Part shown: in pieces, positions 5,774 through 57,703 of the stretch
Layout of the letters: every line of letters begins with the position of its first letter
Numbering within the stretch: position 1 is the stretch's first letter
Source of the DNA: Fulvivirga sp. M361
GTDB taxonomy: Bacteria; Bacteroidota; Bacteroidia; Cytophagales; Cyclobacteriaceae
NCBI RefSeq assembly: GCF_007097395.1
Contig: NZ_VKDC01000003.1
Span: 1-64,000 of the forward strand
Direction: 5' to 3'
DNA: 64,000 bases
Program-made: the position numbers and the translations under genes
Notes under the pieces: model-generated
What the model saw: only the letters and a program-made list of their open reading frames with translations
What the model was told of the DNA's origin: nothing
Database searches by the model: none

Positions 5774-8368
5774 TCATTTTAGTAATCGGGTTAATGGTCT
5801 GTATCTGCTGTTATCCTTTGACCATTCTTCAATCTGGTTTTGATTTTCTATGTACGTCTGACGAAGCAGCTCATATTCTTTCAGAGCGTTTTTGGCATCT
5901 AGGTTTACTCTCCGCCCTGTTTGAGCAGCGAGAACAAAATTATTGAAAGGGTATTTCCAGTCCGGCCAGTGGTTTTCCCGGGCAAAAAGAAATACCTCTT
6001 TTGATCGTGATATCAAACCTTTAATGCCGCTGACCAATTCAAGGTCATCTTTTTCAAATTCTACCTCTACTACCACTTTATCATACACACTGTATTCGTT
6101 GGTATAGACGACAGCCTCTACCTTCACTCCGTCATACCTCCAGGTTCCTTGTCTTATTTCCCTGGAGAAGGGGAGTTCCTGACCGTTTACAAGAACTTTT
6201 TTAGGTAAATGACTGATAGGAAAGCGCAATTCGTAAGCGCGGTTTAACAACATATTCTCATAGGAGCCTTCTATTTTATCAATGACAACATTAGCTTTTT
6301 TTCCATTGAATTTGGAGCTGACAGACGTATAGGTGTATGCGCCATTTTGGTAGGCTTGCGTATTACCGGCATCATCATAAACTTTAGCTGCTCCGTTAGC
6401 TCCCGGGAAGATATTCAATATCAATGGGTTTACAGGTTTCTCACCGGTGTTGTTCATATCTGGCATCATAGGAATGATCGCTCCGGCTTTTACAAATACA
6501 GGGATCTCCGAAATTGTAAACCGGGCTTCAATTTCTTTGCCGCCATCCAGCAATGTTCCGGAACTCCAATTGATCCATTGACCTTTTGGCAACCAAACTT
6601 TTTTAGTAGAAGCCATTTCACCACCTAAACTATCAATGACAGGGGCGATAATAAGATCATCTCCAAAGTAATATTGGTCTTTGTATTTGTAAGCCAGATC
6701 ATCGTCCGATTCATAGTACATGGGACGGCTCAGGCATACGCCAGAATCATATGCCTTACGCGCCATGGTATAAATATAAGGTATAAGTGAATAGCGTAAT
6801 TTATAGGCATCACGCATGGCGTTGGCATATTCGGGAGGATAAGCCCATGGTCTGCGGTCCATGGCAGGGTGTGCCCAGTAGTGGATCTTTACGATAGGAG
6901 AGAAGATCCCGAACTGTATCCATCGGGTAAAAAGTTCCGGCTCTTCTTTCCCTTTGAAAAACCCTCCGAGATCGTGGCCCCAATATCCCCAACCGACATT
7001 GGAAGAAGTAGCAGTAAAGTAGGGTTGAAATTGAAGGGATTTCCATGTATTGTAGGTGTCTCCTGAAAAACCTATTTGATAACGGTGATTGCCTAATCCT
7101 CCCCAACGATGGTAGATCATAGGACGATCTTTGCCACGCCTTTCCATATCCGTATAGTGAAGATAATTGAGGTAGTAGGTGGGGTTAACCCCGGGAATAT
7201 CCGTGCTGTTCCACTGCTGCCAGTCAAGCCACCAGAAATCCACACCATCGTCTTCCATGGGGTGCAGCACGATATCAAAATAATTCCTGGCAAAAGATTT
7301 ATCCGTAATGTTAAAGGGAATATACTTCTTAGTTGTGGGGTCCACGCCCATGGCACTGGCAAATTCATGGTACATGTCTTCATGAGGCTGAATACCGGAA
7401 GCAGGGTGAAGGTTCATACACGTTTTGATCCCTCGCTTGTCCGTCCAGTCCAAAAACCCCTTAGGGTCAGGAAAATAATTCTGGTTCCAGGAGAACCCGG
7501 TCCAACCAGCCCCCTGTCCGGCCTGGTCTGGTTTTTTGTTTTTGCCGTCATACATTTCCGGAAGGTTTACCACATGCCAATCCATGTCAATCACCAGTAC
7601 ATCTAGTGGAAAGTCGTTTGTTTTATACTCTTCCACTAATTCTTTTAGTTCTTCATCTGTGTATTTCCACCATCGGGACTGCCAGGCTCCAAACGCATAT
7701 TTGGGTGGAAAGGCAACTTTTCCTGCTACCAAAGTGTAGTCGGCTAATGCTTGTTTATAATCGGACCCGTAGGCCATAAAGTACCAGTCTTGCGCCATCT
7801 TTTCGTCGCGTGACATTACCCATGGCCAATCAGAATTATCGAAAACGGGTTTTCCTGTATCGTCGATCAACGTCCATCCTTCGCGGGAAAGGATCCCATC
7901 TTCCAGGGGAGTAGCCCCATCGACCTGATCTAAGGTCCTGGTCGTTCCTTTTAAGTTCCCGTTATTTTTTTTGCCCGGATACCAGTCGATGAGCTTCTTT
8001 TCTGCCTGACCTTCGATGGTTAAATTTGATGTCTTAAAAGATCCTGTTCCAACCTTGTATTTCAGGGTTAACACTTCTGTTTGGATGATCACCCATCCGT
8101 CCTGACGGGATACGGTAAAATCAGGTATAGGTACCTTACGATTTACAAAAACCAAAGAGGCATGATCTTCAAACACTCCGTCTTCGGTCCATTCCATTCG
8201 TATCATACGAGGGGTGAGTACGGTGAACCTGCAATTATCACTAATGACCGTAGCGTTTTCCGGAGTTTCAGGATCATAACTGTTTTTGGCCCCACTTATC
8301 ACCGATGTTTGGAGGATCATTTGGAGAATTAATATCGATACGATGGCTTTCCTGTTAAAAATATTCAT
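5774..8368 (-). CDS. GH31 family alpha-glycosidase
   Basis: Retaining alpha-glycosidase of family GH31 (alpha-glucosidase, alpha-xylosidase or related exo-activity). The chosen ATG gives MNIFNRKAIVSILILQM, a clean signal peptide; the longer frame upstream begins at TTG. Order: N-terminal galactose-mutarotase-like beta-sandwich, then the TIM barrel with the substrate-binding motif VLVIDMDWH, the nucleophile Asp in WWLDWQQW and the acid/base Asp in GFSGDTYNTW, then C-terminal beta domains. After these comes an extra helical segment of about 90 residues rich in Lys, Glu and Asn, which most GH31 enzymes lack. The gene ends 122 bp before the GH37/GH63-like gene and starts just after the GH20 gene. 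Family assignment is firm; substrate is not. Confidence 0.9.
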   Translation of the reverse strand: MNIFNRKAIVSILILQMILQTSVISGAKNSYDPETPENATVISDNCRFTVLTPRMIRMEWTEDGVFEDHASLVFVNRKVPIPDFTVSRQDGWVIIQTEVLTLKYKVGTGSFKTSNLTIEGQAEKKLIDWYPGKKNNGNLKGTTRTLDQVDGATPLEDGILSREGWTLIDDTGKPVFDNSDWPWVMSRDEKMAQDWYFMAYGSDYKQALADYTLVAGKVAFPPKYAFGAWQSRWWKYTDEELKELVEEYKTNDFPLDVLVIDMDWHVVNLPEMYDGKNKKPDQAGQGAGWTGFSWNQNYFPDPKGFLDWTDKRGIKTCMNLHPASGIQPHEDMYHEFASAMGVDPTTKKYIPFNITDKSFARNYFDIVLHPMEDDGVDFWWLDWQQWNSTDIPGVNPTYYLNYLHYTDMERRGKDRPMIYHRWGGLGNHRYQIGFSGDTYNTWKSLQFQPYFTATSSNVGWGYWGHDLGGFFKGKEEPELFTRWIQFGIFSPIVKIHYWAHPAMDRRPWAYPPEYANAMRDAYKLRYSLIPYIYTMARKAYDSGVCLSRPMYYESDDDLAYKYKDQYYFGDDLIIAPVIDSLGGEMASTKKVWLPKGQWINWSSGTLLDGGKEIEARFTISEIPVFVKAGAIIPMMPDMNNTGEKPVNPLILNIFPGANGAAKVYDDAGNTQAYQNGAYTYTSVSSKFNGKKANVVIDKIEGSYENMLLNRAYELRFPISHLPKKVLVNGQELPFSREIRQGTWRYDGVKVEAVVYTNEYSVYDKVVVEVEFEKDDLELVSGIKGLISRSKEVFLFARENHWPDWKYPFNNFVLAAQTGRRVNLDAKNALKEYELLRQTYIENQNQIEEWSKDNSRYRPLTRLLK

Positions 8369-8406
8369 TTCTTCAGCACATTTCATTGGTTGGTTCAAAA
8401 CTTGTT

Positions 8407-10692
8407 TTATTCATACGGTTCACCGTTCAATGGCAAAACCAGGCCTTCAAAGGGTTCAAAGTCCTGCATTTCTGCCGTTTTGTATACAATGCTTAATTGA
8501 TTCTGAATTTGCCTGTAGTAATATTTGATTGAAAATGAGTATTCTCCCTGGCTATGACTCGTGCTAAAAGACTCCGGTTCGTTTTTGAAGTTGTTCCCTT
8601 GTGCGACCAATTTATCGTCAATATATAATTCGGCTAACCCATCCCATGTTTGCAATTGCCATTCATAGGTGCCATCCTTCGGAATTTTTAAGATTCCGGA
8701 TAATTCAACAGCATACTGATTGTAGATCCCCGGAAAACGTGTTTCGATGTGCCCCTTACTTTTGACTTTTGCAAAAAGCTCTCCGTTGATCTTTTCCAGC
8801 CGATCGGTTGTCATTTTACCCGCAAGGCCTTCTCTCATAACATTCAGTTTTGTGAAGTCGGGCATTTCCTTCCAGCCTTTGGTAGGTGCCGGGCCCAAGA
8901 CTGTATAATCATAAGCGGGTTCGATTTTTCGAAAGTATCGCTGTTCAGGAAAGCCGATTTTTTTGCCATCTGCGTCAAAAAGCTGGGCTGTGATAATAGC
9001 GCTTTCATCGATTGAAATGCGCTCGTCATAATCAACGGCTTCTTTCATATCAGGTATTCCCCAATCTGTTGAAGTCATGTATTTAATTTTACCGCTGGTA
9101 CTTGACGTCAGTTTGACTTTTATGATGTCGTCAAATGTCATGTCATCATTATGAAGCAGTTCTTCGGCTTCAATCGAAATAGGTCGGAATAGTTTGTTGT
9201 ACAGGTCATTGGTTTGTGCAAATCGCTGCTGAAAGTCTTCGAGGTCAGGTTCAGTTGTGTAGTTCCACATACGTTCGGATAAAACAGGAACTCTTTCGCG
9301 AAGGACTGGGATTACTTTGTAGTAATTTTGTTCCCAAAAACTGATCTGACCTCCCAGGGTAGATTGATTCGGGGCTATTTCGATATCATCAAACTGATCA
9401 TCCCAGTGGTGCCATTGTGTAATGTCCCATTGATATCCTTTTTCTACGGCAGGGGCAAAGTTCATTGCCCCTACCATATACCATGGCACCCATGTTGAAT
9501 TGACAATGTTATATCCGTTAGCTACCAAACTGTCCGGATGATTATAGGTTGCATTCCAGACGATGACAGTTATGTCACGTGGAATAGATTCTTTACCGGC
9601 GCCTGTCCCATGAAACCCCTCCCATATCACTGATTGCTTCCCGGTGGACTTTACCATGGTATGCATTCGGTTAATGAAGTGACAAAAAAGCTCGTTAGCG
9701 TCTCCGGCCAGGGCTACATCGAGATTATTTTCCTTGCAATAGGTTTGGTATTCAGGAATGTGTTTTATGGCTTCCAGGTATACTTCATCCCCTCCGAAAT
9801 GAATATATGGACTTGTGTAAAAAACTTCGGCCAGGGAGTTAATTATTTTCTCGCAGGCCTGGTAGGTTTCTTCTTTTGCCATGTTGATCACATACAGTGA
9901 TACCGGTTGGTTCGTCTTAGGATCAATACTTCCAAAAACATCCGGGTACTTGCTCCATAGCTGTGTCGAGTGTCCGGGAAGGTCTATTTCGGGAATAATG
10001 GCTACCCCCCGCAACCTGGCGTATTCCACTAAATCTTTGAGTTCTTCAATGGTATAATATTCACGCGAACCATCCTTATTCAATGTCTTGAGGTCCGGAA
10101 AATCATCCATTGGAAAAGTAAATCGTCGATTATCGGAAAGGTGCAGGTGCAGGTACTTTATCTTGTAGAACCATAGCAAGTCGATGGTCTCTTTAATCGT
10201 CTCAACAGGATGCCAAAAGCGAGCAAGGTCAAGCATTACTGATCTATAGTCATAATCAGGTTTGTCATAGACAGATACTCTGGGCAAAACAATTTTGTCC
10301 TTTGAAAGGGTGAAAAGCTGTAAGATGGTTGCGGTGCCCATGGCCAGACCACTGTAATTGGATGCTTCGATCTTAATATTTTCGCAAACGTCTAAATAGT
10401 ATTCTTCTTCTTTGAAACTGTCGTTGAATTCGAGGAGTATATTGTTTTCATCCTGCCCTGCTGTAGTTACATTCAACTTTAGTCCGGATATTTTATGTAT
10501 TTGCCGTGCCAACAAATGGGCTAGAGGCTTGAGTGAATCACTTGAAGCAATTATTTCGGTTTTACCATTGATCTCAAATGTTCCCTGGTTAAACTCATAT
10601 TGCCGTGGCTTTGGGATGATCTTCACATCCGGTGATAGTGAAGGTTTGCATTGCAGCAATAAAAGCAACAAGAAGATGGTGTATCGTTTCAT
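8407..10692 (-). CDS. GH20 beta-N-acetylhexosaminidase lipoprotein with C-terminal PA14-like domain
   Basis: Full-length beta-N-acetylhexosaminidase releasing terminal beta-HexNAc at the cell surface or in the periplasm. LLLLLQC makes it a lipoprotein (C15). Domains: GH20b (about 20-140), TIM barrel (about 145-460) with HFGGDE carrying the catalytic pair D302/E303 and the motif PEIDLPGHS, then a chitobiase-C-like beta domain (about 510-590). The last part (about 620-755) resembles PA14, with YEWQLQTWDGLAELYIDD typical of that carbohydrate-contacting fold. It begins the downstream cluster GH20-GH31-GH37/63-six-hairpin; the gap to GH31 is small, suggesting one transcript. It is the better candidate for the active hexosaminidase of the locus. 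Confidence 0.93.
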   Translation of the reverse strand: MKRYTIFLLLLLLQCKPSLSPDVKIIPKPRQYEFNQGTFEINGKTEIIASSDSLKPLAHLLARQIHKISGLKLNVTTAGQDENNILLEFNDSFKEEEYYLDVCENIKIEASNYSGLAMGTATILQLFTLSKDKIVLPRVSVYDKPDYDYRSVMLDLARFWHPVETIKETIDLLWFYKIKYLHLHLSDNRRFTFPMDDFPDLKTLNKDGSREYYTIEELKDLVEYARLRGVAIIPEIDLPGHSTQLWSKYPDVFGSIDPKTNQPVSLYVINMAKEETYQACEKIINSLAEVFYTSPYIHFGGDEVYLEAIKHIPEYQTYCKENNLDVALAGDANELFCHFINRMHTMVKSTGKQSVIWEGFHGTGAGKESIPRDITVIVWNATYNHPDSLVANGYNIVNSTWVPWYMVGAMNFAPAVEKGYQWDITQWHHWDDQFDDIEIAPNQSTLGGQISFWEQNYYKVIPVLRERVPVLSERMWNYTTEPDLEDFQQRFAQTNDLYNKLFRPISIEAEELLHNDDMTFDDIIKVKLTSSTSGKIKYMTSTDWGIPDMKEAVDYDERISIDESAIITAQLFDADGKKIGFPEQRYFRKIEPAYDYTVLGPAPTKGWKEMPDFTKLNVMREGLAGKMTTDRLEKINGELFAKVKSKGHIETRFPGIYNQYAVELSGILKIPKDGTYEWQLQTWDGLAELYIDDKLVAQGNNFKNEPESFSTSHSQGEYSFSIKYYYRQIQNQLSIVYKTAEMQDFEPFEGLVLPLNGEPYE

Positions 10693-11138: not shown

Positions 11139-13601
11139 TTATGGTTTATTATCAGATGTCACCATTTTATACATTTCACTTCCAGCTAACAAAAAGGCAC
11201 CAGTTCCATATACATGCCAGTTATCGGGAGTGAATTTGCGGGGGTCGATGCCTTCCGGCTGCACATTTCCTAAGCGTCCGTTGTCATTGACATTATCACA
11301 CAGCGCTGTCCAGGCTTTTTCCACTTTTTGCCGGTGTTTTGTATCGATCAGTCCTCTGTTTACCCCCCATGCCAAAGCATATGCAAAAAAGGCGCTTCCG
11401 CTTACCTCTCCTTTGTCATGGTAATCCGGGTCCAGAAGACTTACTCTCCACAGCCCATCTACTCCTTGCAGCTCTAATATTCTTCCTGCCATTTCTTTGT
11501 ATAGCCTTTCATATTTTTCCCGGGTAGGAAAGTCATTGGGCATCAGGTCCAATATGCGGGCAAGACCAGCGATGACCCACCCATTTCCCCTGGCCCAAAA
11601 GATCTTCTTGCCACTTTCTGATCGTTGCTTGATGAACCGGTCGTCTCTGAACATCAATGAGTCTTCATTGGAATACAAATAGTCAGTTGTGATCCAATAC
11701 ATCTTGTCCATGTAATCAAGGTATTTTTTCTCTCCGGTTTCTTTGGACATACGGGCAAATGATGGAGGTGCCATAAAAAGGGCATCACACCATGTCCACC
11801 ACTCTACGAAATAGGGATTGTTCGCAAAGCTCACATCAGCCATATAGGCCCTTCTGGTGGCTAAATGAATGTCCATGGCCCACTTACTATACCTTATTAT
11901 TTCCGGATCTTTCTGCTGACCATACAGCCATGCCCAGTTAGCAGTGATGGTAAGTTGGTCGGCATAAAATATATTATCTTCCGGTTTCCAACCTGCATAT
12001 TCTCCGATGTTGATCATTTCCTGCTTGTAGCGATCTTCCTGTGTTAGCTCATACAACGCTTGGATTCCAATAAAATAGGTTCCCCAATGCCATTCGAGTA
12101 GTCTTTTGAGATCATAGGGGTTTGCAAATTGCCAATCGGCTGTTTGGCGCATAACATCAATTATCTGTTTTGGCGCTAATGGATCCGTGATAGCAGGGGA
12201 TGGGAGGTCCATTTTAATCGAACTGTGAAAGCGATCCGCCCAATGTGTTTTGGTCCAGGATGCATGACTGTAATTTAGATATTTTGTGTTTTGCATCCAG
12301 ACTACCTGTAGAGGATTGCCTTCTTTGGCCCCACGGACAGCAAATGGACGTACATTATCTTTTTCCGAACCTTTAGTAATAAATTCTGCTTTCCACGATC
12401 GCCCATCATTTTTCGTCGTCCATTTTTCTATTTCGAAGATAGAATCTCGCTTGACTGACAGGTATAATTCATTCGTATTTTCATGGTCTATGTTTATTCC
12501 ACCGGAATAATTGGGTTCAGGCTCTTTTTTACCTTCAGGTGTTTGTGGAAACCAGCCTCCTGAATTGATGAGGTCTCGGTTTAACCACTCCTTTCCTGTC
12601 CATTTGGCGTAGTAGTAGATATGTTTTTCATCTGTTGGGAACCTGGCATAGGCCAAAACGGGATTACCTTTTTCATCTTCTGCTATATCCCAATTCCATG
12701 CTTTGGCTCCTCCTTTTTTCGCGTCATAAACGATGTCCAGCTCTTCTGGCTTTAATGGCAGGTCGGTAATTTTTTTGATGAGTATACCATTAGCCTTATA
12801 AAATGCCCCATTTTGATAATATGTGTAATAAATGCTATTTCCTTTTTCATTGCGGGGATGACCGTCCGTGAATGTAAAATGTATTTTATTATCACCATTA
12901 GAGTAAACCTTAGTATATGGACGTCTGAAAGCGTATATCGGATCTGGCATCAAAAGTATTTGCCCTTTTGTCCATGATTCACCATTATCGTCACTATGTG
13001 AGTATCCGGGCTTACCATCTACACCTCTCCAAAACAAGTATATCCTTCCATTTTCAGCTTTAAGTCGAATAGGGTTGGTGTAAGTGTGTGTGAAGCTGGT
13101 TTTATCACTGACCTTATCTTTCTCATCATTGAGGAAAAGTGATTTGACTTTCGTCCATTTTGAGATGTCTTCAGGATTTTCGGATTTTATAAGATATAAT
13201 GGGTGGGGATGGGGAGAGTCTCCGTAGCCGTGCCTGTTAAAAAAGATCAGGAGCTTTCCTTCTTCATCAAACAGGATGGATGGATTGTCGTGATCATCTA
13301 TTTCGAGGTTTTTCCGGACGATATGTGTATTGATCTGTTTTGTTTCATGATCATAAAAACCTACGGTTATGTTTCCATAGTTATCAATCCAACCGGAATA
13401 AGTTCGCTTATGTTTCCCTTCGTAATAAACGGCCCTTGGGTCAGAAAACCAGCACCACGAACCATTGAATGTAAATGACTTAAATGACTCACTATGTTCT
13501 CCGGTGCCTTTCTTTGGTTTTGCATTGATCAATGGTCCCTGAGCATTAACCGTTGTCACTGCAACCAGGAACATCAGTGACCATACCATCGTATTTTTCA
13601 T
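11139..13601 (-). CDS. BNR/Asp-box propeller fused to GH105 unsaturated-uronyl hydrolase (copy 1)
   Basis: A secreted two-domain enzyme. The signal peptide MKNTMVWSLMFLVAVTTVNA is followed by a BNR_4-type beta-propeller (about 40-470 in the 825-residue frame that starts five codons earlier) with the Asp box SDDNGESW and the family-typical start NGSWCWFSDPRAVYYEG. From about residue 485 an (alpha/alpha)6 GH105 domain follows: the likely catalytic Asp is D611 in WCDALFMAPP, and WARGNGW is the other hallmark. GH105 enzymes hydrate the 4,5-double bond of unsaturated uronides made by polysaccharide lyases. BNR_4 propellers include several uronate-polymer lyase families, so one polypeptide may cut and then trim. 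Next to a close paralogue and the PL8 lyase. Lyase activity of the propeller is inference. Confidence 0.88.
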   Translation of the reverse strand: MKNTMVWSLMFLVAVTTVNAQGPLINAKPKKGTGEHSESFKSFTFNGSWCWFSDPRAVYYEGKHKRTYSGWIDNYGNITVGFYDHETKQINTHIVRKNLEIDDHDNPSILFDEEGKLLIFFNRHGYGDSPHPHPLYLIKSENPEDISKWTKVKSLFLNDEKDKVSDKTSFTHTYTNPIRLKAENGRIYLFWRGVDGKPGYSHSDDNGESWTKGQILLMPDPIYAFRRPYTKVYSNGDNKIHFTFTDGHPRNEKGNSIYYTYYQNGAFYKANGILIKKITDLPLKPEELDIVYDAKKGGAKAWNWDIAEDEKGNPVLAYARFPTDEKHIYYYAKWTGKEWLNRDLINSGGWFPQTPEGKKEPEPNYSGGINIDHENTNELYLSVKRDSIFEIEKWTTKNDGRSWKAEFITKGSEKDNVRPFAVRGAKEGNPLQVVWMQNTKYLNYSHASWTKTHWADRFHSSIKMDLPSPAITDPLAPKQIIDVMRQTADWQFANPYDLKRLLEWHWGTYFIGIQALYELTQEDRYKQEMINIGEYAGWKPEDNIFYADQLTITANWAWLYGQQKDPEIIRYSKWAMDIHLATRRAYMADVSFANNPYFVEWWTWCDALFMAPPSFARMSKETGEKKYLDYMDKMYWITTDYLYSNEDSLMFRDDRFIKQRSESGKKIFWARGNGWVIAGLARILDLMPNDFPTREKYERLYKEMAGRILELQGVDGLWRVSLLDPDYHDKGEVSGSAFFAYALAWGVNRGLIDTKHRQKVEKAWTALCDNVNDNGRLGNVQPEGIDPRKFTPDNWHVYGTGAFLLAGSEMYKMVTSDNKP

Positions 13602-13686
13602 ATATCTAGCTTTCATTTGTTCTTTACTGTCCTTATTTCTTGCCTCTTACCTTTAAGTATTCAAATAGGAGAGTCTTTCTTATCAT

Positions 13687-16149
13687 TTATTTCGATTCTG
13701 CAACCATTTTATGTACTTCCGCCCCTGCCAGTAAAAATGCTCCTGTTGCGTAATTGAATGAGCTATCTTTATTAAAAACAGGGGTCGGGTCAATTCCCTC
13801 CGGTTGTACATTGCCCAAGCGTCCGTTTTCATTGACATTGTTGCAAAGTGCCTTCCATCCCCTCAATACTTGCGGCTTATGTTTTTCATCAAGCAATCCG
13901 TTATTGAGACCCCAGGTCATGGCGTAGATATAAAATGCAGCGCCACTCACTTCGCCTTGGTCCATAAATTCCCGATCCAACAGACTTGCATGCCAAAGCC
14001 CGTCTTCTCTTTGCAGGCTGAGCAATTTGATCATCATTTCGTGATAGAGGTTTTCATATTTAGTTCGGTTAGGATAGTCCTCAGGCATCATATCTAATAT
14101 TTGAGTAAGTCCTCCGGCCACCCAGCCATTTCCTCGTGCCCAAAAGATCTTCTTTCCATTGTCCGAGCGTTTGTCAAAATAGCGATCATCTCTATAGATC
14201 AATGAGTCCTCTTTGGAGTATAAATAGTCTGTGGTTACCCACCACATTTCATCCATATAGTCGAGATACTTTTGCTCCCCGGTTTCCCTGGCCATTCGGG
14301 CAAAGGCCGGTGGAGACATGAAAAGAAAATCACATAAAGACCACCATTCTTCACGGGCCGGGTTATCTGCAAAACGAACATTTGCGTTCCATTTTCTTCG
14401 CATGGCGATATGCACGTCCATAACCCACCTGGCTTGCTCTATCATTTTTGACTCTTTTTCAAGTCCATACAGCCACGCCCAAATTCCTGTATGCACTACG
14501 TTATTACCATCAAAGATCTTGTCATTGGTACGCCAATTCGCGTGCTCACCTACATTGATCATCTCTTGCTTGTAGCGATCTTCTTTTGTCAGTTCATACA
14601 GTGCTTTGACTCCGGTATAGAAAGCTCCGTAGTGCCATTCCAGGATTCTCTCCAGGTCATAAGGGTTGGCAAAATCCCAATCTGCTGTTTGTCGCATGAT
14701 CTCTTCAATCTGACCTGGATCAAACGGATCTGTCATTTTTGGGGAGGTAATATCCATTTTTATTGAACTCTGGAAACGCTCAGACCATTTAATATGCTTT
14801 GTCCAGTTGGCATAACTGTATTCAATGTATTTGGTATTCTGCATCCATAATACCTGAAGCCTGTTATCCTCACCAGCCCCGCGAATAGCAAACGGGCGGA
14901 TATTATCTTTTTCAGAGCCTTTTGTAATAGGGTCTATCTTCCAGTTCTTACCTCCATTTGAGGTGGTCCATTTTTCAATTTCAAAAACAGTTTTTCGCTT
15001 GACCGAAAGATATAATACATTGGTGTTTTCATGGTCAATGTTCATCCCACCGGAGTAATATTGCTGGGACTCTTTTCTACCTTCCGGTGTTTCAGGGAAC
15101 CAGGCTCCCGAATTGACCAGATCGTAATTCTTCCACGCTTTACCGGTCCATCGGGCATAACAATAGATGTGATCTGATGTGGTGGGGAATTTCGTATAGG
15201 CCAGTACCGGATGACCATTTTTATCTTCGGCTATGTCCCAGTTCCAGGCGCGCTCTTTGCTGCTTTTTGCGTCGTAGACCACATCCAATTCTTCCGGTAA
15301 TAAGGGTAACTCATCTATCGTTTTTATTTTCTCCCCACTGGCTTTGTAAAATACTCCGTTTTCGTAATACGTATAATAAATACTGTTTTCCTTTTCCCGG
15401 TCCGGATGGCCGTCAGTAAAGGTGAAGTGTATCCTCTTATCGCCATTGGAATATACTTTGGTATATGGTCGCCTGAAACTATAGATAGGAGCCGGTGTCA
15501 TTAAAATACGACCTTTGGCCCAGGTATTTCCGTTGTCCTCGCTCTGTGAATAGCTCGGCTTTCCGTCTATTCCTCTCCAGAAAAGATAAATCCTTCCATT
15601 CTCAGCTTTTAACCTGACCGGATGGCTATAGTCCTGGGACATAGATGCATTTGGGGTGGGTTTGAGGGCTTCATCGTTTAAGTACAATTCCTGAACATCT
15701 TTCCATGCTGAAATATCTTCAGGGTTTTTGGATTTGATCAGGTAACCCGGCGGCGCTACCGGGGAAGTTCCGTACCCGTGACGGTTGAAGAATACCAGTA
15801 ACTTTCCTTCATCATCAAACAAGATGGAGGGATTGTCATGATCATCTACTTCAAGATTTTCCCTTACAATATGAGTGGCTATCTGCTTTGTCTCGTGGTC
15901 ATAGCTGCCAATTGTAATATTTCCATAATTATCGATCCAACCGGCATAGGTGCGTTTATGCTCTCCTTCGTAATAAACTGCCCTGGGGTCGGTAAACCAG
16001 CACCAGGAGCCATTAAATGTAAGCGACTTAAAGGACTCACTATGTTGACCTGAGGTTTTATTGATCCTTGTTTGTACAAGTTTTGTCTGACCATTAACTT
16101 CTAAACTTGTAATGAAGATAATAATAAGTAATAGGGTGGTATTTTTCAT
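13687..16149 (-). CDS. BNR/Asp-box propeller fused to GH105 unsaturated-uronyl hydrolase (copy 2)
   Basis: Paralogue of the gene at 11139-13601 with the same two-domain layout. The start chosen gives MKNTTLLLIIIFITSLEVNG, matching the signal peptide of its partner; in-frame ATGs exist up to 16200. The propeller retains NGSWCWFTDPRAVYYEG and the Asp box SEDNGNTW. The GH105 half retains the Asp of WSLCDFLFMSPP and the WARGNGW motif. By eye, most aligned positions are identical across both domains, so whole-gene duplication is clear. The gene lies just after PL8, which would supply unsaturated uronides. Divergence near the substrate loops of the hydrolase half (RAYMADVSFANN versus RKWNANVRFADN) suggests they may differ in specificity. 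Confidence 0.88.
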   Translation of the reverse strand: MKNTTLLLIIIFITSLEVNGQTKLVQTRINKTSGQHSESFKSLTFNGSWCWFTDPRAVYYEGEHKRTYAGWIDNYGNITIGSYDHETKQIATHIVRENLEVDDHDNPSILFDDEGKLLVFFNRHGYGTSPVAPPGYLIKSKNPEDISAWKDVQELYLNDEALKPTPNASMSQDYSHPVRLKAENGRIYLFWRGIDGKPSYSQSEDNGNTWAKGRILMTPAPIYSFRRPYTKVYSNGDKRIHFTFTDGHPDREKENSIYYTYYENGVFYKASGEKIKTIDELPLLPEELDVVYDAKSSKERAWNWDIAEDKNGHPVLAYTKFPTTSDHIYCYARWTGKAWKNYDLVNSGAWFPETPEGRKESQQYYSGGMNIDHENTNVLYLSVKRKTVFEIEKWTTSNGGKNWKIDPITKGSEKDNIRPFAIRGAGEDNRLQVLWMQNTKYIEYSYANWTKHIKWSERFQSSIKMDITSPKMTDPFDPGQIEEIMRQTADWDFANPYDLERILEWHYGAFYTGVKALYELTKEDRYKQEMINVGEHANWRTNDKIFDGNNVVHTGIWAWLYGLEKESKMIEQARWVMDVHIAMRRKWNANVRFADNPAREEWWSLCDFLFMSPPAFARMARETGEQKYLDYMDEMWWVTTDYLYSKEDSLIYRDDRYFDKRSDNGKKIFWARGNGWVAGGLTQILDMMPEDYPNRTKYENLYHEMMIKLLSLQREDGLWHASLLDREFMDQGEVSGAAFYIYAMTWGLNNGLLDEKHKPQVLRGWKALCNNVNENGRLGNVQPEGIDPTPVFNKDSSFNYATGAFLLAGAEVHKMVAESK

Positions 16150-16212
16150 TTTGTTCATTTCATAAATGGGTACGTTGGCTGAAGGATGATTCTTTTTCAT
16201 TATCTGCTTTAT

Positions 16213-18348
16213 TTAGTCAAACTCATTTATCGTCACGCTACTTCCTGCATAATCTCCGTCGGGTAGATCGACTACCAGGTTATTCTTCCCTGAAATACCA
16301 ATGTGGAGCTTATTCAATGTGCGTGATGGGTCCGAAGCCGATATGCTTTCTATGGCATCTCCCTTGGTTTTTAGCATGATAATACCCGGTGAATCCAGCG
16401 TTACCCACAAGTCTTTGCCAATTTCTACTTTCCCGGAGGTGTAGAAAACGATCTGGATAATGCCCAGCCCTTTATGTTTTACGGCCTGTAGTTTTGAGGT
16501 ATTGGATAAGATCTCTATATTCCGGTCGGTGTTCAACGCGTCAGGTGTTGTGACCGGAACGACTATATACTGGTAGGTGACATCCTTTGTGTCCATTTTG
16601 CCGGGATACAACCATAAGTTCTCTCCTTGCGGACGTTTACCATGATCAACCCATAGCTTAAAAACATCTTTTTCAACCAGTTCTTTTGGGGAAGTTACCT
16701 GCAGGTTTATGTCAGACCAGCGTCCACTCTCCGTTTTGTTGGTGATGTTTATGTGTGTTGAGCATGGGAATATATAGCCGGTGCCATCATGAAAGACCCA
16801 ACTTACGTTGTCCAGCTTATGGTCTCCTATGTCTATTTTGCTTTTACCATTTGCTTTGGAAACCAGCACATCTCCATTTAGTAGCGTTTGATTAATAGTA
16901 GTGGCTACAGGATATCGGAAATTGTTAGAGGCAATACCTGCCCCCAGACAAACATATTCCTCATCAAAAAAGAACCATGACTTTTTTACTCTTATATGAT
17001 CATGCGGACTGATAAAATCAAATCCGGCAGCTCCGTATAACCCGTCTGTTACGGCCCCTACAAAACTTGTAAGTCCGTCTTTCTGAATTTCATGCTGTGA
17101 TGGTAAACCCGGCTTCTGTAAGACTGTTGTGCCGGGTATTTTTTGCCAATCATAAACGGGCCAAATGTTTAAGTACTCATTCCCTTTGACGGCCAGATGA
17201 TTGGTGCCATCGCCCCTGTGATGATTAAATATACCTTCACCATTATGGGCTAATTCCATATTGCGATTACGAATCGAAAACATTCTTACGGAAGTAAAAA
17301 AGTTTGGGCGCTGGAATGTAAGGAGTTCTGATTGCCAGAAGAATTTACAAAATGAAAGTGTGGGTTTTTCGACGCTGCCTTTTCGAAGGTTTATTATTTC
17401 CAGGATCTCAGGTTTGCGATAGTCGGTTACCTCAAGGAGCGTTTCCATTGTTACCGGTGAGAATATCAATGTGGTTTCTTTTCGTGTGATATCTCTATTG
17501 GCGACACCTTTCTCATCATGTTTGCCATAAACCATCTGTTTACAGATCCCATCCAAATAGTAATCCACCATTAGCTTTATCTTTTCTTCAGAGAATACGT
17601 ATTTGGTGTTGGCGACATGTGCTGCCCACTTGATACAAGCATCACCATAGGGCACTCCGTAGGGTATGGTATTATTTTCTCTGTGAACACGGTGATGGAA
17701 GCTATAATCGGATTGAAGACCTCTATTTCCGGTGGAAAATTTGACTTCACTCTCTATCAGTGTTATAATCCTTTCAAATTTTTCTTCATCTCCGATGAGG
17801 ACGTAGTACTTGGCTTCAATATCGGCTATCCTTATTTTATCGGCACTTGGACGCGCCCAGGGGTTGTCCTGGTTGGCCCTGCTGATGATGGCTTTTACTT
17901 TTTTAAGAACATCCTTATTAATGTCCTTTTCCATAAAAAGAGAAATGGTAACCAGTGTTTTTGGCAGGAAAATAATGTTATGCCACCAGTTATCACTTAT
18001 GAAATCATTTTCACACCAGAATTTTAATGATTTATTGATGCTGTTTTTCAGCTTTTTGTCTTTGTAAAATTCAGAACCCTTTTTGCAGTAGGATAGGGCC
18101 ATTGCCATTAAGTTTTCTACATGATAGCTATGCTCAAAACCTGTAAGGGATACATCTTTGTAGTTTATATCCGGCCAACTGCCATCTTCCTTCATAGTGA
18201 CCATTGCTTTTTTAGTATGCTGATCATTCATATCAGCCTTAAGCAACTCTTTGACGATGTGCTTTTTTATTTTTTGCAAATCGTTTTGACCAAATACCTC
18301 GACTGAAATGGCTACGCAAAAAATCAGACTTAATAATCTAACTATCAT
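16213..18348 (-). CDS. PL8-family polysaccharide lyase
   Basis: Secreted lyase that cleaves uronate-containing polysaccharides by beta-elimination (PL8 includes hyaluronan, chondroitin and xanthan lyases). A signal peptide ends near FGQ (20-21). The N-terminal (alpha/alpha) toroid holds the NWWHN motif (N120) and the stretch DYSFHHR (214-220) with PYGVPYG (229-235), carrying the candidate catalytic Tyr230/Tyr234. The central super-sandwich is marked by SIRNRN, RGDGTNHLAVKGNEYLNIWP and WQKIPGTT (about 358-408). At 711 residues it has the usual length. In chondroitin AC lyases the His sits two residues after SYL/SF (as in LQH); here that position is Arg with two His just before it, marking a divergent subgroup. 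The polymer is unknown; the absence of sulfatases argues against a sulfated one. Confidence 0.9.
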   Translation of the reverse strand: MIVRLLSLIFCVAISVEVFGQNDLQKIKKHIVKELLKADMNDQHTKKAMVTMKEDGSWPDINYKDVSLTGFEHSYHVENLMAMALSYCKKGSEFYKDKKLKNSINKSLKFWCENDFISDNWWHNIIFLPKTLVTISLFMEKDINKDVLKKVKAIISRANQDNPWARPSADKIRIADIEAKYYVLIGDEEKFERIITLIESEVKFSTGNRGLQSDYSFHHRVHRENNTIPYGVPYGDACIKWAAHVANTKYVFSEEKIKLMVDYYLDGICKQMVYGKHDEKGVANRDITRKETTLIFSPVTMETLLEVTDYRKPEILEIINLRKGSVEKPTLSFCKFFWQSELLTFQRPNFFTSVRMFSIRNRNMELAHNGEGIFNHHRGDGTNHLAVKGNEYLNIWPVYDWQKIPGTTVLQKPGLPSQHEIQKDGLTSFVGAVTDGLYGAAGFDFISPHDHIRVKKSWFFFDEEYVCLGAGIASNNFRYPVATTINQTLLNGDVLVSKANGKSKIDIGDHKLDNVSWVFHDGTGYIFPCSTHINITNKTESGRWSDINLQVTSPKELVEKDVFKLWVDHGKRPQGENLWLYPGKMDTKDVTYQYIVVPVTTPDALNTDRNIEILSNTSKLQAVKHKGLGIIQIVFYTSGKVEIGKDLWVTLDSPGIIMLKTKGDAIESISASDPSRTLNKLHIGISGKNNLVVDLPDGDYAGSSVTINEFD

Positions 18349-18465: not shown

Positions 18466-20721
18466 TCAATTGTTTTCATTGAAATAAGACTGATATTCTT
18501 TATTTAATCTTGTAGCCACATCGATTACATCTCCGGTAGGAGCACTTGGATACGCTTCATGGCTTCTGGTCCATTGATAATCCATGGCCCTCACCTCCAG
18601 ATCGTATTTTTTGGGATCGAATGTTTTACCTTCGGATAAAGCCGTTCGCATATGTTGGATCAGTAGTTTCCATCGCGGCAGGTAATATCCTTTGAATAAG
18701 CCATTCCATTGTTTTCCTGCATAATCCCGCAGGTATCCTTCTTTCCAGGGCTGCCAGATGGTGACAATGGTTCTGGCATTCCACTCGTAGTAAGCCGCTT
18801 CCTCTTCATTTTGGGCCCAACCTTTTGCATCTTCCAGCCATTTGCCCAGGAGAAAATTCTCATTGGTGCCTGTAATTTCATCCAGGTCTGTGATCAGTTT
18901 TTCCAGGCTTTTTGCTGCTTTCTCAAAACGCTTCGTGTCTTTTTCCTGGTAAGCCACCGTCAGTTCGTTGATAAACCGGTGGGTCAGACTGCTCAGTAGC
19001 TCACGATAAACGTTAGTCAGGTCGAACCGATAGGTATCCACTGAGGCCAGTTCATCGGCAGACTGTAAGAGCAGGCTGGCTGCTTTTGCGAGTTCTATCG
19101 GTTGAAAGTCCCAGGCAAAAGGGTCTTCTTCGGTGATGGTGAAACTTTTTCTCTGGTGCCTAATGTCTTCTTCGGATTCTTCAAAACGTATGGGCCTTGG
19201 TGTAGTGATCAATGGTGACCACATGGTTCGGGTCCTTGAATAGACAGTATTCAAGAGCCCTTTCCAGGCATCTATAACTTTTTCGCTGTCTGTACCATAT
19301 CTCCGGATAGCATATTTTTCGATCCATTTATCTACATCTACCTGTGATTGATTCCAGGCTTTTTCGAAGATAAAATACTGAACAACAGGGTTGTATCCTA
19401 ACCCTTCCGGAATGACTCCTATGCCTTTGAGGTTGTTTTTGATCTCGCTGTTATAAGCCGCTGTGAAGTTGGTTTGCATTACCGTAAGGTCACCACTCAT
19501 ATTGACTTTCTGGTCTTCATTGCAGATCACGTTCCATATCCATGGCTGTCCATAGAATGCTTCTGTTTTATCCCATGTGGGATTTTTCTCTCCGTAGAGA
19601 TCGAGGACAATGACCTTGTCTTTTGGGACGGCTTCTAAAAACGCACGGCCTCTTTCCGGCGTCCAGAAGTCCTTTTTGAAAAAGAAGAACCAGCCTTGTA
19701 GCACCCAGGTCGCTTCCGGGTCAGCTTTGGCCATGGACTGGTAGACATTACGACTTACCTGGGCTAAGAATTCCGGGTCAGTAGATGGAGGGTCAACTTC
19801 TATGAAGCAATCGGCATCGTAGAGATGGTCAGTGCCGAATAGCTCTGTCTGTTTTTCAATAAAAGCGGTACCAATTTCTTGAAAGAGGGAATCTGTGGGA
19901 TCAAGGAACCATGTGCCGGGTATGCCTGCCCAGTCTTCTATCTGGAATATATTGGCAGTGGGATATAGTTCTTTTAAAGCCTGAGGCACATGTCCGGTAA
20001 AGGCCTGCAAGACTGGCTTCATTCCTAACGAACGCATCCGTTGTAAAACCTTGTTTTGCAATTCTTTCCGCTGATCGATCCAGTTTTGTGGAAGCGGGCC
20101 ACCCAGTCCGTCAATATTGCCCATCCATCCCCATGGAAGGTGGGCAGGTCCCACAAAAAAATCATCAACCTGTTCTTGAGAAAGCCCCAGATCAGTGAGT
20201 ACTTCCTGCCAGACGGCCTCCTGACCGATGGTTGCCAGGGGCATATTTACTCCCATCATAGCCATGTAATCGATCATTTGCTCCCATCGATCCCAATCCC
20301 ACCAGGGCATAGTGTATCCATAGGTACAGTAATTGAACATATATCGATAGTCAAACGGGGTTTCGATCCTTTGTTTTTCGTTTACTTCCGGTAGTTGGGG
20401 CGGTAGGTTTAACTGGTTATAGTTGATAGAGACCTGGGCATTACAATAGTTTTTCAAGTACCAGTTAAGCCCGGAGGAGAGTGCTACGCCACTGGTTCCT
20501 TCTATACGTATTTTGCCGTCAACACTACTGATTTCGAAGAAGTCTTTTCCATTATTCGCTACAGTTTCCTTGAAAATGAACGAACTATTGTGTTCCGGAA
20601 GCATCCTTGCCAGAAGGGCGTAAGCAGCTTGTTCGTAGGGTGTGTTAGGAATCTCTTTTTTTGTATTACAGCTTATTAAAACAAGTAATGCTAAGCAACT
20701 GATGATTCTGTATGCGCCCAT
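18466..20721 (-). CDS. GH89 alpha-N-acetylglucosaminidase lipoprotein
   Basis: Bacterial homologue of human NAGLU, hydrolysing terminal alpha-linked GlcNAc. LVLISC makes Cys18 the lipid anchor. The N-terminal domain (about 25-120) precedes the TIM barrel with highly conserved blocks: MPWWDWDRWEQMIDYMAMMG, WMGNIDGLGGPLP, LGMKPVLQAFTGHVP, and DADCFIEVDPPS holding the first catalytic Glu. PEGLGYNPVVQYFIFEKAW holds the second. The C-terminal helical domain is complete, ending near residue 751. It is the first enzyme gene after susC-susD, about 550 bp downstream of susD and beyond a terminator, so it likely has its own promoter. Its presence means the target glycan carries alpha-GlcNAc. Highly confident family call. 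Confidence 0.95.
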   Translation of the reverse strand: MGAYRIISCLALLVLISCNTKKEIPNTPYEQAAYALLARMLPEHNSSFIFKETVANNGKDFFEISSVDGKIRIEGTSGVALSSGLNWYLKNYCNAQVSINYNQLNLPPQLPEVNEKQRIETPFDYRYMFNYCTYGYTMPWWDWDRWEQMIDYMAMMGVNMPLATIGQEAVWQEVLTDLGLSQEQVDDFFVGPAHLPWGWMGNIDGLGGPLPQNWIDQRKELQNKVLQRMRSLGMKPVLQAFTGHVPQALKELYPTANIFQIEDWAGIPGTWFLDPTDSLFQEIGTAFIEKQTELFGTDHLYDADCFIEVDPPSTDPEFLAQVSRNVYQSMAKADPEATWVLQGWFFFFKKDFWTPERGRAFLEAVPKDKVIVLDLYGEKNPTWDKTEAFYGQPWIWNVICNEDQKVNMSGDLTVMQTNFTAAYNSEIKNNLKGIGVIPEGLGYNPVVQYFIFEKAWNQSQVDVDKWIEKYAIRRYGTDSEKVIDAWKGLLNTVYSRTRTMWSPLITTPRPIRFEESEEDIRHQRKSFTITEEDPFAWDFQPIELAKAASLLLQSADELASVDTYRFDLTNVYRELLSSLTHRFINELTVAYQEKDTKRFEKAAKSLEKLITDLDEITGTNENFLLGKWLEDAKGWAQNEEEAAYYEWNARTIVTIWQPWKEGYLRDYAGKQWNGLFKGYYLPRWKLLIQHMRTALSEGKTFDPKKYDLEVRAMDYQWTRSHEAYPSAPTGDVIDVATRLNKEYQSYFNENN

Positions 20722-21268: not shown

Positions 21269-22954
21269 TTAATTATAACCTGGATTTTGCTCCAGTACAG
21301 TTTCCGTGTTTGTTTCTATCTCTCTGAATGGGATTGGAAACAGGTTGTTGAATGGTTGTATGGTTGGACCAGCTGTTGGGTTTGCCATAACAGTCCGCTC
21401 AAATAATAGGTTTAACCTACTTAGGGTCATTCTACGCTGTTCTTCCCAGTTCAGCTCTCTCAATCTTTCATCTAATATGTAGTCGATGTCTACATCTCCT
21501 TCGGCTACGGGGATCGCTCCTGCTCTGTTTCTAAGCATATTGATGTCTGCGGCAGCTAACCCAGTGTTTCCCTGAGCAAGATAAGCTTCAGCTCTGAGCA
21601 GATAAGTTTCTGCGACTCTCATTAAGTACCAGTCTGTATGTGTTTTACCTGCCAGGGGTGATAATTCTCCGGTGGTAGCATCTAAGATAGCGTCAGCAGG
21701 GTGATCATTCTTGGTAGTGATCTTAGTTACATTTGGAAAGAAATCCCGCAAGGTGTCTTGTGCACTCAGACCATCAAACCATGATTGAGGTAAATCACTT
21801 ATATTTTGACCGAAATAAGCAGATCCCGGATTATCTACCATCCAATCTCTTTGAATATTCCTTTCGTGATTTCTCACATCTACATCGAAATTTCCATTGC
21901 CCCAAATGGTATGGGTAAAATATGGAGTAGGTCGTATAAAGCCAACAGGCCTGCCTCCTGCTTGAGTAGTAGGTCCTAAAAATATATCTTCCCCGTCAGG
22001 ATCTTTTAGCACAAAGTAAAGCGGTCCGTAATTTCTCTCATAGGACAGGCCGGCCGTGAAGTTTTCAACAGTAGAACCACCAGGAACATTTGTTTCTGTT
22101 TGTATGACATAAATTCCTTCGGTATTTCCACTGGCTCTGTTTTGATTGTTTCGCTGGAACAGGTCCCAGTAAGGATCTCCATCGTCTGTTGCCCTGTTTC
22201 CAAAACGCGTAGTCATCAGGCTTATATTGGGGTCGTCAATAACAGCCGAAGCAGCAGCAATGGATTTGTCCAAATCACCGGAAGTAATATAGAGTTCTGC
22301 CAATGTATGTAGTGCAGCAGCATTAACTAAACGCCCCTCGTCTTGCGAAGGAATTTCACTTACGTTGGGTAAATTTTCTGCGGCAAACTCCAGGTCTGAG
22401 ATGGCTTGTGCTACAGTGGCTTCTTTCGTATCTCGCACAAAATCTCTTTTGGGGCTGCTAATTTCATCTAATACAATGGGAACCCCGCCATACAAGTTTA
22501 CCAAACAGCGATAAGCATATCCTCGAAAAAAACTTGCTTCAGCTTTGTGTCTCGTCCTTTCATCTTCTGAGTCGTAGTCTATACCATCTAATCTGCCTAG
22601 TATAACATTAGTGTTAAAGATAATGCTGTACATAGCATTCCAGTAATTAGCTACAAAAAAAGAAGTTGGATTAAGGTCAATCGTATAATCCTCCAGAAGA
22701 GGGATTGCCGTACCCCTGGATGACATAGCGAGGTCAGTAGCAGAATGTAAATGGCCGGTAGTAAAGTACTTGCCATCATAAAAATTTCTTATGTTATCAT
22801 AATTCAGAAATAAAGCAGCTTCTATATCTTCAGGCGTTGTGAACGAGTTTTCCGGACTTAAGAAATCAAGCGGTGTCTCGTCCAATATGTCCTCATCGCA
22901 AGCACCTGCAAGAAACAGTATGCCCACCATAATTATATATCTGTATACTTTCAT
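21269..22954 (-). CDS. SusD/RagB family glycan-binding lipoprotein
   Basis: Outer-membrane surface lipoprotein that captures the glycan and works as a lid on the SusC channel. FLAGAC puts the lipidated Cys at residue 19, followed by an acidic DEDI start typical of surface-exported Bacteroidota lipoproteins. The N-terminal SusD helices (SFTTPEDIEAALFLNYDNIR), the TPR-like AEASFFRGYAYRCLVNLYGGVP, and the C-terminal WYLMRVAETYLLRAEAYLAQ and RLRELNWEEQRR are all diagnostic. It ends in EQNPGYN, the normal SusD terminus. The gene starts 12 bp after susC and is clearly co-transcribed. The sequence does not reveal the ligand. Confidence 0.96.
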   Translation of the reverse strand: MKVYRYIIMVGILFLAGACDEDILDETPLDFLSPENSFTTPEDIEAALFLNYDNIRNFYDGKYFTTGHLHSATDLAMSSRGTAIPLLEDYTIDLNPTSFFVANYWNAMYSIIFNTNVILGRLDGIDYDSEDERTRHKAEASFFRGYAYRCLVNLYGGVPIVLDEISSPKRDFVRDTKEATVAQAISDLEFAAENLPNVSEIPSQDEGRLVNAAALHTLAELYITSGDLDKSIAAASAVIDDPNISLMTTRFGNRATDDGDPYWDLFQRNNQNRASGNTEGIYVIQTETNVPGGSTVENFTAGLSYERNYGPLYFVLKDPDGEDIFLGPTTQAGGRPVGFIRPTPYFTHTIWGNGNFDVDVRNHERNIQRDWMVDNPGSAYFGQNISDLPQSWFDGLSAQDTLRDFFPNVTKITTKNDHPADAILDATTGELSPLAGKTHTDWYLMRVAETYLLRAEAYLAQGNTGLAAADINMLRNRAGAIPVAEGDVDIDYILDERLRELNWEEQRRMTLSRLNLLFERTVMANPTAGPTIQPFNNLFPIPFREIETNTETVLEQNPGYN

Positions 22955-22966
22955 AATGTGTAAAAG

Positions 22967-27515: not shown

Positions 27516-27658
27516 TATCACCTTCTCATTTTCAAGTTCTATGTATAAGAGAGGGAAGTTTTGAAAAAGAAATCACGAAAGATGAAAAATATTTGCACTT
27601 TTTTCTAAAAGGGCAAAATATAGGTCTGATGATTAACTAAGAGGTGTATTGAAGCCGT

Positions 27659-28324
27659 TCAGTTAAAAATGAACGCGGGTATTACTACAAGTAAATGTTT
27701 TTTCAATTCGGAAATAGCGCGGTACATAAGGTTGCGCGTGGCTTGAATATGTGTGAAATCCATCAGTTTTTGTATCTCGGCATAACTCATGTTTTCATAG
27801 TAAAAATAATAAATGGCCTCCCTTTGTCGAGGTGTTAGTTTTTTTATAGACTCGGCAAGTTTTTGTCTTTGCTCTATATGCATCTGACTCTCTATGAGCC
27901 TTTGTTCTATAGAAAAAGTTACTTCGAATGCGGCGTACTCAGGCTGAGGCGAATAAGGTAAATCCTTTCTGCGTTTTTCTAAAAGCTTTATCAGTTTCCT
28001 TTTAAGTGATTTAAATAGATAGAACCGGATTGACGTTTTTATTGTGATCTTTTTGCGTTTTTGGCGCAATTCCACGAAGAGGTCCTGAATAGCGTCTTCT
28101 ACCAACTCCTGTATACATGTAAACTGACATCCATATTGATACAATGCCTGAAAATGTTCATTGTATATGTAAATAAAGCTGGCCTCGTCACCTGATCGGA
28201 ACCTGTTCCACACGTCCGCATCGGGCAAAGTGGCCATGGGGTTTTGGGGCGAATGTAAAAGAACTTCGTCCTCCGGCTTCGAAGAAGTATGCAGTCCGTT
28301 ATTTAATAGTTTTGAATTACCCAT
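27659..28324 (-). CDS. ECF RNA polymerase sigma factor
   Basis: Sigma-70 family ECF factor expected to activate the leftward PUL. Region 2 includes FIYIYNEHFQALYQYGCQF and ELVEDAIQDLFVELRQ; region 4 is the HTH LTPRQREAIYYFYYENMSYAEIQKLM. The C terminus carries a short hydrophobic tail (LLVVIPAFIF). The start is the ATG giving MGNSKLLNNG; the frame extends five codons to a TTG. It is the first gene of the locus and is divergent from the HAD hydrolase across a 435-bp gap. Confidence 0.93.
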   Translation of the reverse strand: MGNSKLLNNGLHTSSKPEDEVLLHSPQNPMATLPDADVWNRFRSGDEASFIYIYNEHFQALYQYGCQFTCIQELVEDAIQDLFVELRQKRKKITIKTSIRFYLFKSLKRKLIKLLEKRRKDLPYSPQPEYAAFEVTFSIEQRLIESQMHIEQRQKLAESIKKLTPRQREAIYYFYYENMSYAEIQKLMDFTHIQATRNLMYRAISELKKHLLVVIPAFIFN

Positions 28325-57601: not shown

Positions 57602-57703
57602 GCTTCAGCTAAGTGCATTCTACCGCTAATCCTAAAAAAAGAAAAATTTAATTGGGGTCATTCGTTCAAATTATTGCTCATTATTCTGAGCAATGTTGAA
57701 TTT

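Follow-up and report, generated by a model that had tools for sequence, protein, structure and literature searches.

To our knowledge, polysaccharide lyases (PL) and unsaturated-uronyl hydrolases are normally separate proteins. In Bacteroides plebeius, the product of BACPLE_00338, an enzyme of glycoside hydrolase (GH) family 145, now PL42, is cleaved by the unfused GH105 enzyme BACPLE_00337 (PMC8406133; this and the other published systems are cited here from excerpts of the papers). The PL24, PL25 and PL42 enzymes described in those excerpts cut bonds between rhamnose and glucuronic acid (Rha-GlcA). Here we analyze a window of 64,000 nucleotides from Fulvivirga sp. M361 (positions 1 to 64,000 of contig NZ_VKDC01000003.1), in which two adjacent genes each join a BNR_4 propeller to a GH105-type hydrolase. 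Our best reading, which we consider likely, is that each gene codes for a cut-and-trim bifunctional enzyme composed of a lyase propeller and a GH105 half.

Both genes are situated on the minus strand, with 70 bases between their open reading frames (ORFs). Copy 1 (11139..13616, 825 residues) contains a signal peptide-like N-terminus, a BNR_4 propeller (residues ca. 40–470) and a GH105-type hydrolase (ca. 485–820). Copy 2 (13687..16200) has the same architecture, with 837 residues from the ATG at 16200 or 820 from an in-frame ATG at 16149, which is residue 18 of the ORF and immediately precedes the signal peptide-like stretch. This second ATG is a reasonable start for copy 2, and the coordinates of a preliminary description of this DNA, which opened the gene there, are good. 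As judged by eye, neither of the signal peptide-like N-termini contains a lipobox. The Pfam domain BNR_4 (PF15892) was found in copies 1 and 2 with E-values of 1.8e-40 and 3.3e-41 (139.5 and 141.9 bits; gathering cut-off, 27.3), and Glyco_hydro_88 (PF07470) with 2.9e-68 and 3.2e-67 (230.9 and 227.5 bits; cut-off, 26.6), confirming the two adjacent propeller-GH105 fusion genes of that description. The copies are 65 % identical over their full length, with 72 % identity in the propeller and 62 % in the hydrolase half. Synonymous differences between them are saturated (proportion of synonymous differences 0.86 in the propeller and 0.84 in the hydrolase), and a recent duplication was therefore rejected. 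A third fusion copy is found on the same contig (ca. 195 kb), and an unfused propeller and GH105 pair lies side by side on contig C35 of the same genome (locus L009).

Since the single propeller sequences resemble no solved propeller, we built a profile from 16 aligned propellers, those of copies 1 and 2 and those of 14 loci retrieved from 84,980 species genomes. The best solved match of this profile was the PL25 ulvan lyase 5UAM (E 2.8e-4, spanning ca. 110 residues), followed by sialidases (0.0093). This alignment, to which no information on catalytic roles was given, pairs H109, H129, Y179 and R197 of copy 1 with chain positions 99, 119, 164 and 180 of 5UAM, which a constant offset of +24 converts into H123, H143, Y188 and R204 of PL25; the equivalents of these four residues are invariant in all 16 rows of the profile. 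His123, Tyr188 and Arg204 are named as catalytic in PL25, with His143 adjacent to them (PMC8377490).

The comparison with PL42 makes use of Joostella atrarenae (L014), where a true PL42 (former GH145) gene (11565-12878) is situated directly after a fusion gene. Its product, a separate BNR_4 protein, matches 4irt with an E-value of 8.9e-148 and the FoRham1 entries with 2.7e-33 to 8.2e-32, and pairs with positions 87, 107, 152, 168 and 204 of the FoRham1 chain, which correspond to H85, H105, Y150, R166 and Y202 with a single offset of 2. These five catalytic residues of the Joostella protein align in the columns of H109, H129, Y179, R197 and Y234 of copy 1. In FoRham1, His85 is the base/acid, Arg166, His105 and Tyr150 surround the carboxylate, Asp83 bridges the histidines, and no activity was detected for Tyr202 mutants (PMC10951650, as excerpted). 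In copy 1, the corresponding codons on the minus strand are those of H109 (13290..13292; equivalent to the base/acid His, FoRham1 H85 and PL25 H123), H129 (13230..13232; second His, FoRham1 H105 and PL25 H143), Y179 (13080..13082; FoRham1 Y150 and PL25 Y188), R197 (13026..13028; equivalent to the carboxylate neutralizer, FoRham1 R166 and PL25 R204) and Y234 (12915..12917; FoRham1 Y202). Copy 2 has H121 (15838..15840, minus strand) in the place of H109, and also keeps H141, Y191, R209 and Y246. The preliminary description had named a propeller lacking any lyase-like pocket as evidence against its proposal; at the residue level such a lack was not observed, the PL42/PL25 catalytic set being present.

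This set also bears on whether the propeller might be an oligosaccharide dehydratase like P29_PDnc from Formosa, taking water off a terminal uronate and leaving the unsaturated residue to GH105. The product logic and the GH105 partner family would be those of ulvan degradation (PMC8511951), but the residues mutated in P29_PDnc (D248, E254, E255, D269, D290, R300, K303 and Y306, as given in the excerpt) are unlike the His/His/Tyr/Arg/Tyr set, and on this comparison of residue lists alone we hold a dehydratase to be very unlikely.

Conservation was examined in 36 aligned propellers (32 at first, then L034 and L044 to L046), which reach down to ca. 26 % BLAST identity to the window copies, and lower in the case of the Joostella PL42 protein. 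All five catalytic residues are kept in 34 of them, the exceptions being L039 and L041; setting these two aside leaves 10 invariant columns out of 430, half of which belong to the catalytic residues. An AlphaFold2 model of the propeller, built on the 16-row alignment (mean predicted local distance difference test score, pLDDT, 75; predicted template modeling score, pTM, 0.82), was compared with the PDB by Foldseek. Ranks 1 to 4 were PL25 structures (1.4e-16, for 5uam, to 5.2e-16) and ranks 5 to 8 were the former GH145, now PL42, proteins BACINT_00347, BACOVA_03493, BACCELL_00856 and BT3686 (5mum, 4irt, 5mvh and 5mul; 3.9e-14 to 4.4e-13), these eight having template modeling (TM) scores of 0.60–0.67 by query length; the rows that follow are lectins and sialidases, at 1.2e-8 or weaker. 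The residue alignments and the predicted fold therefore support a propeller that carries the PL42/PL25 catalytic set and whose fold would be nearest to PL25 and former GH145/PL42.

With former GH145 proteins among the nearest folds, the propeller could in principle be a hydrolase acting through the posterior site of BT3686 (the GH145 rhamnosidase mode, with His48). We find this hardly credible, because the Tyr of the Joostella PL42 protein that pairs with BT3686 His48 sits at W56 of copy 1, a position occupied by Trp in 33 of the 36 propellers and by His in none. An alternative placement at column 69, made by eye from loop length, has His in 14/36 and Tyr in 6/36, including the third copy, in a stretch that is poorly aligned.

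One of the two exceptional propellers offers a view of each half by itself. In the second fusion of Aureibaculum marinum (L039), both His, the Arg and the second Tyr are replaced by L, R, N and Q, the first Tyr (Y179) is kept, and the Asp residues at 107 and 108 are also lost. Compared with its counterpart from A. flavum (L023), synonymous divergence (dS) amounts to 0.86 (propeller) and 0.79 (hydrolase), and nonsynonymous divergence (dN) to 0.266 and 0.036, respectively. With dS similar and dN unequal, the halves are of about the same age and only the propeller has relaxed: its constraint is much reduced along with the active site, and that of the hydrolase is kept. Recombination was rejected as the source of this odd propeller, because dS is alike in both halves and the nearest sequence among the pairs computed is still the A. 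flavum counterpart. The stripped propeller retains 15 of the 27 columns that are invariant in 29 family rows, including W344, P424 and W440, and is still constrained (dN/dS 0.31), which makes a binding role likely in that one protein. This, and the position of lectins as the next entries in the Foldseek list, would suit a propeller that is a non-catalytic module, binding the uronate polymer and holding it for its GH105 partner. For the family we nevertheless judge such a module improbable, since the five PL42 catalytic residues occur, in the PL25/PL42 columns, in 34/36 propellers, and four of them were lost jointly in L039, as would be predicted for one active site. Although L039 is a single protein from a single genome, and so an illustration rather than a proof, the relatives suggest that either half, propeller or hydrolase, can change or decay independently of the other.

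Searches with the whole proteins using phmmer identified GH105 structures, plus weak unrelated chains over the hydrolase half. The nearest solved relative of the copy 1 hydrolase is Nu_GH105 (4CE7, E 6.2e-79), followed by 5NOA (1.4e-40), and the 4CE7 chain is also the top structure match for copy 2; it is on these nearest structures, and not on a CAZy model, that the assignment to GH105 rather than GH88 is based. The catalytic Asp and the WxRGNGW motif are present in all 20 aligned hydrolase halves, an alignment from which L015, which ends at a contig end, and L022 were dropped. Taking the YteR residues from PMC4528949, the catalytic Asp (YteR D143) is D611 in copy 1 (11784..11786, minus strand) and is kept as D624 in copy 2 (14329..14331, minus strand), and the equivalents of Trp211, Trp217 and the Arg between them are W674/W687, W680/W693 and R676/R689 (copy 1/copy 2). 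The preliminary description thus correctly noted an intact catalytic Asp and WARGNGW motif, found as FWARGNGW in both copies; it missed that the hydrolase pocket is altered in copy 2. There, N566 (14503..14505, minus strand) occupies the position equivalent by counting to YteR D88, which is Asp in 18 of the 19 other hydrolase halves and Asn in a solo GH105 (L011, 654-1811), and L622 (14335..14337, minus strand) replaces the equivalent of YteR W141, which is Trp in all 19 others. Copy 1 keeps both residues, as D553 and W609, D553 being equated with YteR D88 by an ungapped count back from a shared LY motif (phmmer places YteR D85 there). RhiN and YesR, which are active enzymes, carry Asn at position 88 (PMC4528949) and so does L011; therefore, the copy 2 hydrolase need not be dead.

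In a comparison of 18 full-length fusions, copy 2 alone departs from an otherwise invariant residue at nine positions of the hydrolase (Q496D, A552G, D553N, W609L, A612F, P730R, S741A, A749T and V802N, numbered as in copy 1), and at none of the propeller. By the same measure, L029, the most distant of the fusions, stands alone at 18 columns of the hydrolase and 21 of the propeller, and nearer relatives do so at 0 to 4 columns of the hydrolase (four in L014, three in the third copy and two in copy 1). Identity to the Flavivirga fusion (L013) is 77 % in the propeller and 64 % in the hydrolase of copy 2, and 75 % in each half of copy 1. These changes fit an altered specificity or a weakened hydrolase; most likely, copy 2 keeps the lyase step and has a changed hydrolase pocket that would result in different or weaker trimming. 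The earlier suggestion that the two copies split the work thus acquires a concrete basis in sequence, and stands as a proposal as far as activity is concerned.

Fusion was found in 13 of the 14 loci from the species-genome search; two of these (L012 and L023) are on one contig and L015 ends within the hydrolase at the contig end. The exception, L022, stops after the propeller, ca. 300 bases short of the contig end. The propeller family is rare, being detected in 13 of 395 sampled genomes of the phylum (E 1e-30) and in 7 of 395 of the class (E 1e-60), counts that overlap and that both include the window's own genome. Of the propellers in these sampled genomes, fifteen are closer relatives (at least 36 % identical to copy 1): eight are fused to the hydrolase, two have it as an adjacent separate gene (L009 and L045), and the other five include a protein of 1095 residues (L031, 358-3645) in which a Pec_lyase domain (PF09492) takes the place of GH105. 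Separately, two tandem unfused propellers of the family (L030/L040) are found near a PSCyt1/PSCyt2 protein, a setting unlike that of the other loci. Full-text searches, limited to the open literature, retrieved papers on the families but did not find a published account of a fusion of BNR_4 with GH105.

This distribution leaves room for halves that act independently on different substrates, joined as a convenience of co-expression, an explanation that overlaps with the lyase reading and does not exclude it. The separate genes in L009 and L045, the union with a Pec_lyase domain in one genome and the differing evolutionary rates of the halves in some members are in its favor. However, GH105 is the very class that acts on the products of such lyases (PMC8406133), and order and pairing recur in 13/14 loci, so that we regard independent halves as rather unlikely.

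From the observed architecture and conservation, the predicted fold, the pairing that recurs and the unequal constraint on the halves in one relative, we infer a reaction, an order of steps and a hand-over within one chain, which would run as follows. The putatively exported protein, as the signal peptide-like N-termini examined by eye suggest, would have as its N-terminal propeller a beta-eliminating uronate lyase with an active site of the PL42/PL25/PL24 type. Arg197, aided by His129 and the two Tyr, would neutralize the uronate carboxylate, and His109 would abstract the C5 proton and protonate the leaving sugar, severing the linkage at the uronate O4 and generating a 4,5-unsaturated uronate. 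The C-terminal GH105 half would then hydrate the double bond and release the unsaturated residue, and the next sugar would thereby be exposed to the exo-enzymes that the locus encodes, GH89 and GH20 among them.

Several observations weigh against a lyase propeller working in tandem with GH105. Using phmmer with single sequences, no propeller structure was found with copy 1 at E-values up to 10, nor with copy 2 at E-values up to 1, so that PL25 is detected by the profile match alone (E 2.8e-4), and the propellers match no PL42/GH145 chain by either phmmer or the profile. The structural model is of moderate confidence (mean pLDDT 75), its Foldseek superposition is loose (TM 0.67, root-mean-square deviation 5.4), and entries for FoRham1 and for PL24, a family that the preliminary description had listed for fold comparison along with the top-ranking PL25 and PL42, are absent from the best 50 of 973 Foldseek matches. 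Conservation is also sensitive to the rows counted: without L039 alone there are eight invariant columns, which include four of the five residues, and with all 36 propellers there are four, Y179 being the sole catalytic one. Position 107, which lies two residues ahead of the first His and would supply the Asp of the His-His-Asp triad, holds Asp in 31/36 propellers, Asn in 4/36 and Lys in L039. The search that yielded 14 loci started from a pair of conserved peptides and is hence biased to close relatives, and there is no GH105 within ca. 1.5 kb of 5/15 closer propellers or of 7/7 distant ones. Finally, co-translation alone is no proof of product hand-over, and none of the results fixes the substrate. 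With these points considered, the lyase residues and the predicted fold still support the cut-and-trim bifunctional enzyme of the preliminary description, which stands, as a prediction of activity, as the likeliest reading.

The fusions are part of a polysaccharide utilization locus (PUL) transcribed entirely from the minus strand. Upstream of them are genes for FecR and an extracytoplasmic function (ECF) sigma factor (26469..28339), in the order ECF sigma factor and FecR, a SusC and SusD pair (21269..26326, SusC first), a GH89 alpha-N-acetylglucosaminidase family protein (NAGLU; 18466..20721) and a chondroitinase AC-like PL8 lyase (16213..18348), 12 bases upstream of copy 2. The PL8 protein matches the chondroitinase AC structure 1hm2 (E 2.8e-91), and scores 380.9 bits with the NCBIfam model for that enzyme, below the cut-off of 1000. 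Downstream of copy 1 follow genes for a GH20 beta-hexosaminidase family protein (8407..10692), a GH31 family protein (5774..8398), an MGH1-like glycoside hydrolase (PF22422; 4314..5651), a protein of 696 residues without family assignment (2210..4300) and a second GH20 family protein (79..1491). The 696-residue protein has a lipobox-like, lipoprotein-like start as seen by eye and no Pfam match at 0.001 or convincing PDB match; a partial ORF from the A. flavum locus (L023) matches it at 46 %, and it is possibly a carbohydrate enzyme.

Ulvan, suggested as a substrate by 4CE7 and PL25, was held unlikely because, among the 13 proteins scanned (79 to 28339), there was no match to sulfatases or GH106, and the lone rhamnosidase match (the MGH1-like protein with Bac_rhamnosid6H, 23.3 bits; cut-off, 24.5) is below threshold and far behind the MGH1 match of the same protein. 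A sulfatase with an SGSH_C domain in three related loci (L013, L014 and L023) counts toward ulvan. The Aureibaculum, Flavivirga and Joostella loci share varying subsets of relatives of the window's SusC/D, PL8, GH89, GH20 and MGH1 genes, with the addition of DUF2264 (L013 and L023) and of a heparinase II/III protein in A. flavum (L023), and the third copy has as a neighbor one ORF (L007, 2935-4854) with glucosamine-6-phosphate isomerase and PIG-L deacetylase domains. The GH89, GH20 and PL8 genes and these related-locus neighbors therefore suggest a polymer containing both hexosamine and uronate; the uronate-type PUL of the preliminary description was right but incomplete, as GH89 and GH20 indicate hexosamine too. 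The locus of the unfused pair (L009, 85-12214) contains an alpha-L-fucosidase, a sulfatase and a beta-helix protein, and is perhaps directed at another substrate. Elsewhere in the window, a second FecR, SusC and SusD set occupies the other end (57674-63913, plus strand), and a Thioredox_DsbH (DUF255) protein (51419-53536, minus strand) has a sub-threshold match to Glyco_hydro_88 (23.2 vs. 26.6 bits).

More tentatively, we see it as possible that the propeller represents a new lyase family outside PL24/PL25/PL42, operating in a single-chain lyase plus unsaturated-uronyl hydrolase on a glycosaminoglycan-like hexosamine-uronate polymer, not on Rha-GlcA, and that paralogues that drop the activity of one half or alter that of the other produce a division of labor within one locus. 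If the two-step enzyme is real, this natural single chain could reveal whether there is a direct hand-over of the unsaturated end, might serve as a ready-made tool for dismantling uronate polymers, and would extend the PL25/PL42-type active site to hexosaminidase-bearing loci. L039, which lost 4/5 lyase residues and kept the hydrolase, and copy 2, in which the lyase residues are intact and the hydrolase pocket is changed, are natural variants for testing each half.

Among known systems, the PL25 enzyme PLSV_3936 (5UAM/5UAS) is the best profile and fold match, and the propeller contains the equivalents of its His123, His143, Tyr188 and Arg204. It differs in its low identity (17–18 % in the Foldseek alignment), in the fusion of the window protein to GH105 and in the genomic setting, the 13 scanned window proteins having no sulfatase match and no rhamnosidase match above cut-off. 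PL42 enzymes (former GH145; FoRham1, BT3686 and BACPLE_00338) share the BNR_4 Pfam family (for FoRham1, PMC8377490), the five catalytic residues in aligned columns and fold ranks 5 to 8, and in B. plebeius PL42 and GH105 act in turn (PMC8406133). However, the window propellers have no sequence match to PL42 chains, whereas the Joostella PL42 protein matches 4irt at 8.9e-148 and is a separate protein adjoining the fusion. Placing the propeller in PL25 or PL42 by sequence needs CAZy's own models, although its mechanism should resemble theirs. The PL24 ulvan lyases (LOR_107) share with PL42 a His-His-Asp triad and a neutralizing Arg (PMC8377490, PMC10951650), to which the putative propeller site is similar, but PL24 is neither matched by the profile nor found among the 50 best fold matches. 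On the hydrolase side, Nu_GH105 has the catalytic Asp and FWxRGNGW in common with copy 1, of which it is the closest solved relative; its solved chain of 370 residues is without a propeller, and copy 2 departs from it at the D88 and W141 equivalents. The two-step organization itself has a parallel in P36 of Formosa agariphila, which, as described in the excerpt, combines other enzyme classes (an S1_25 sulfatase and a GH78) without a lyase, and likewise carries two consecutive steps on a uronate polysaccharide in one chain (PMC8511951).

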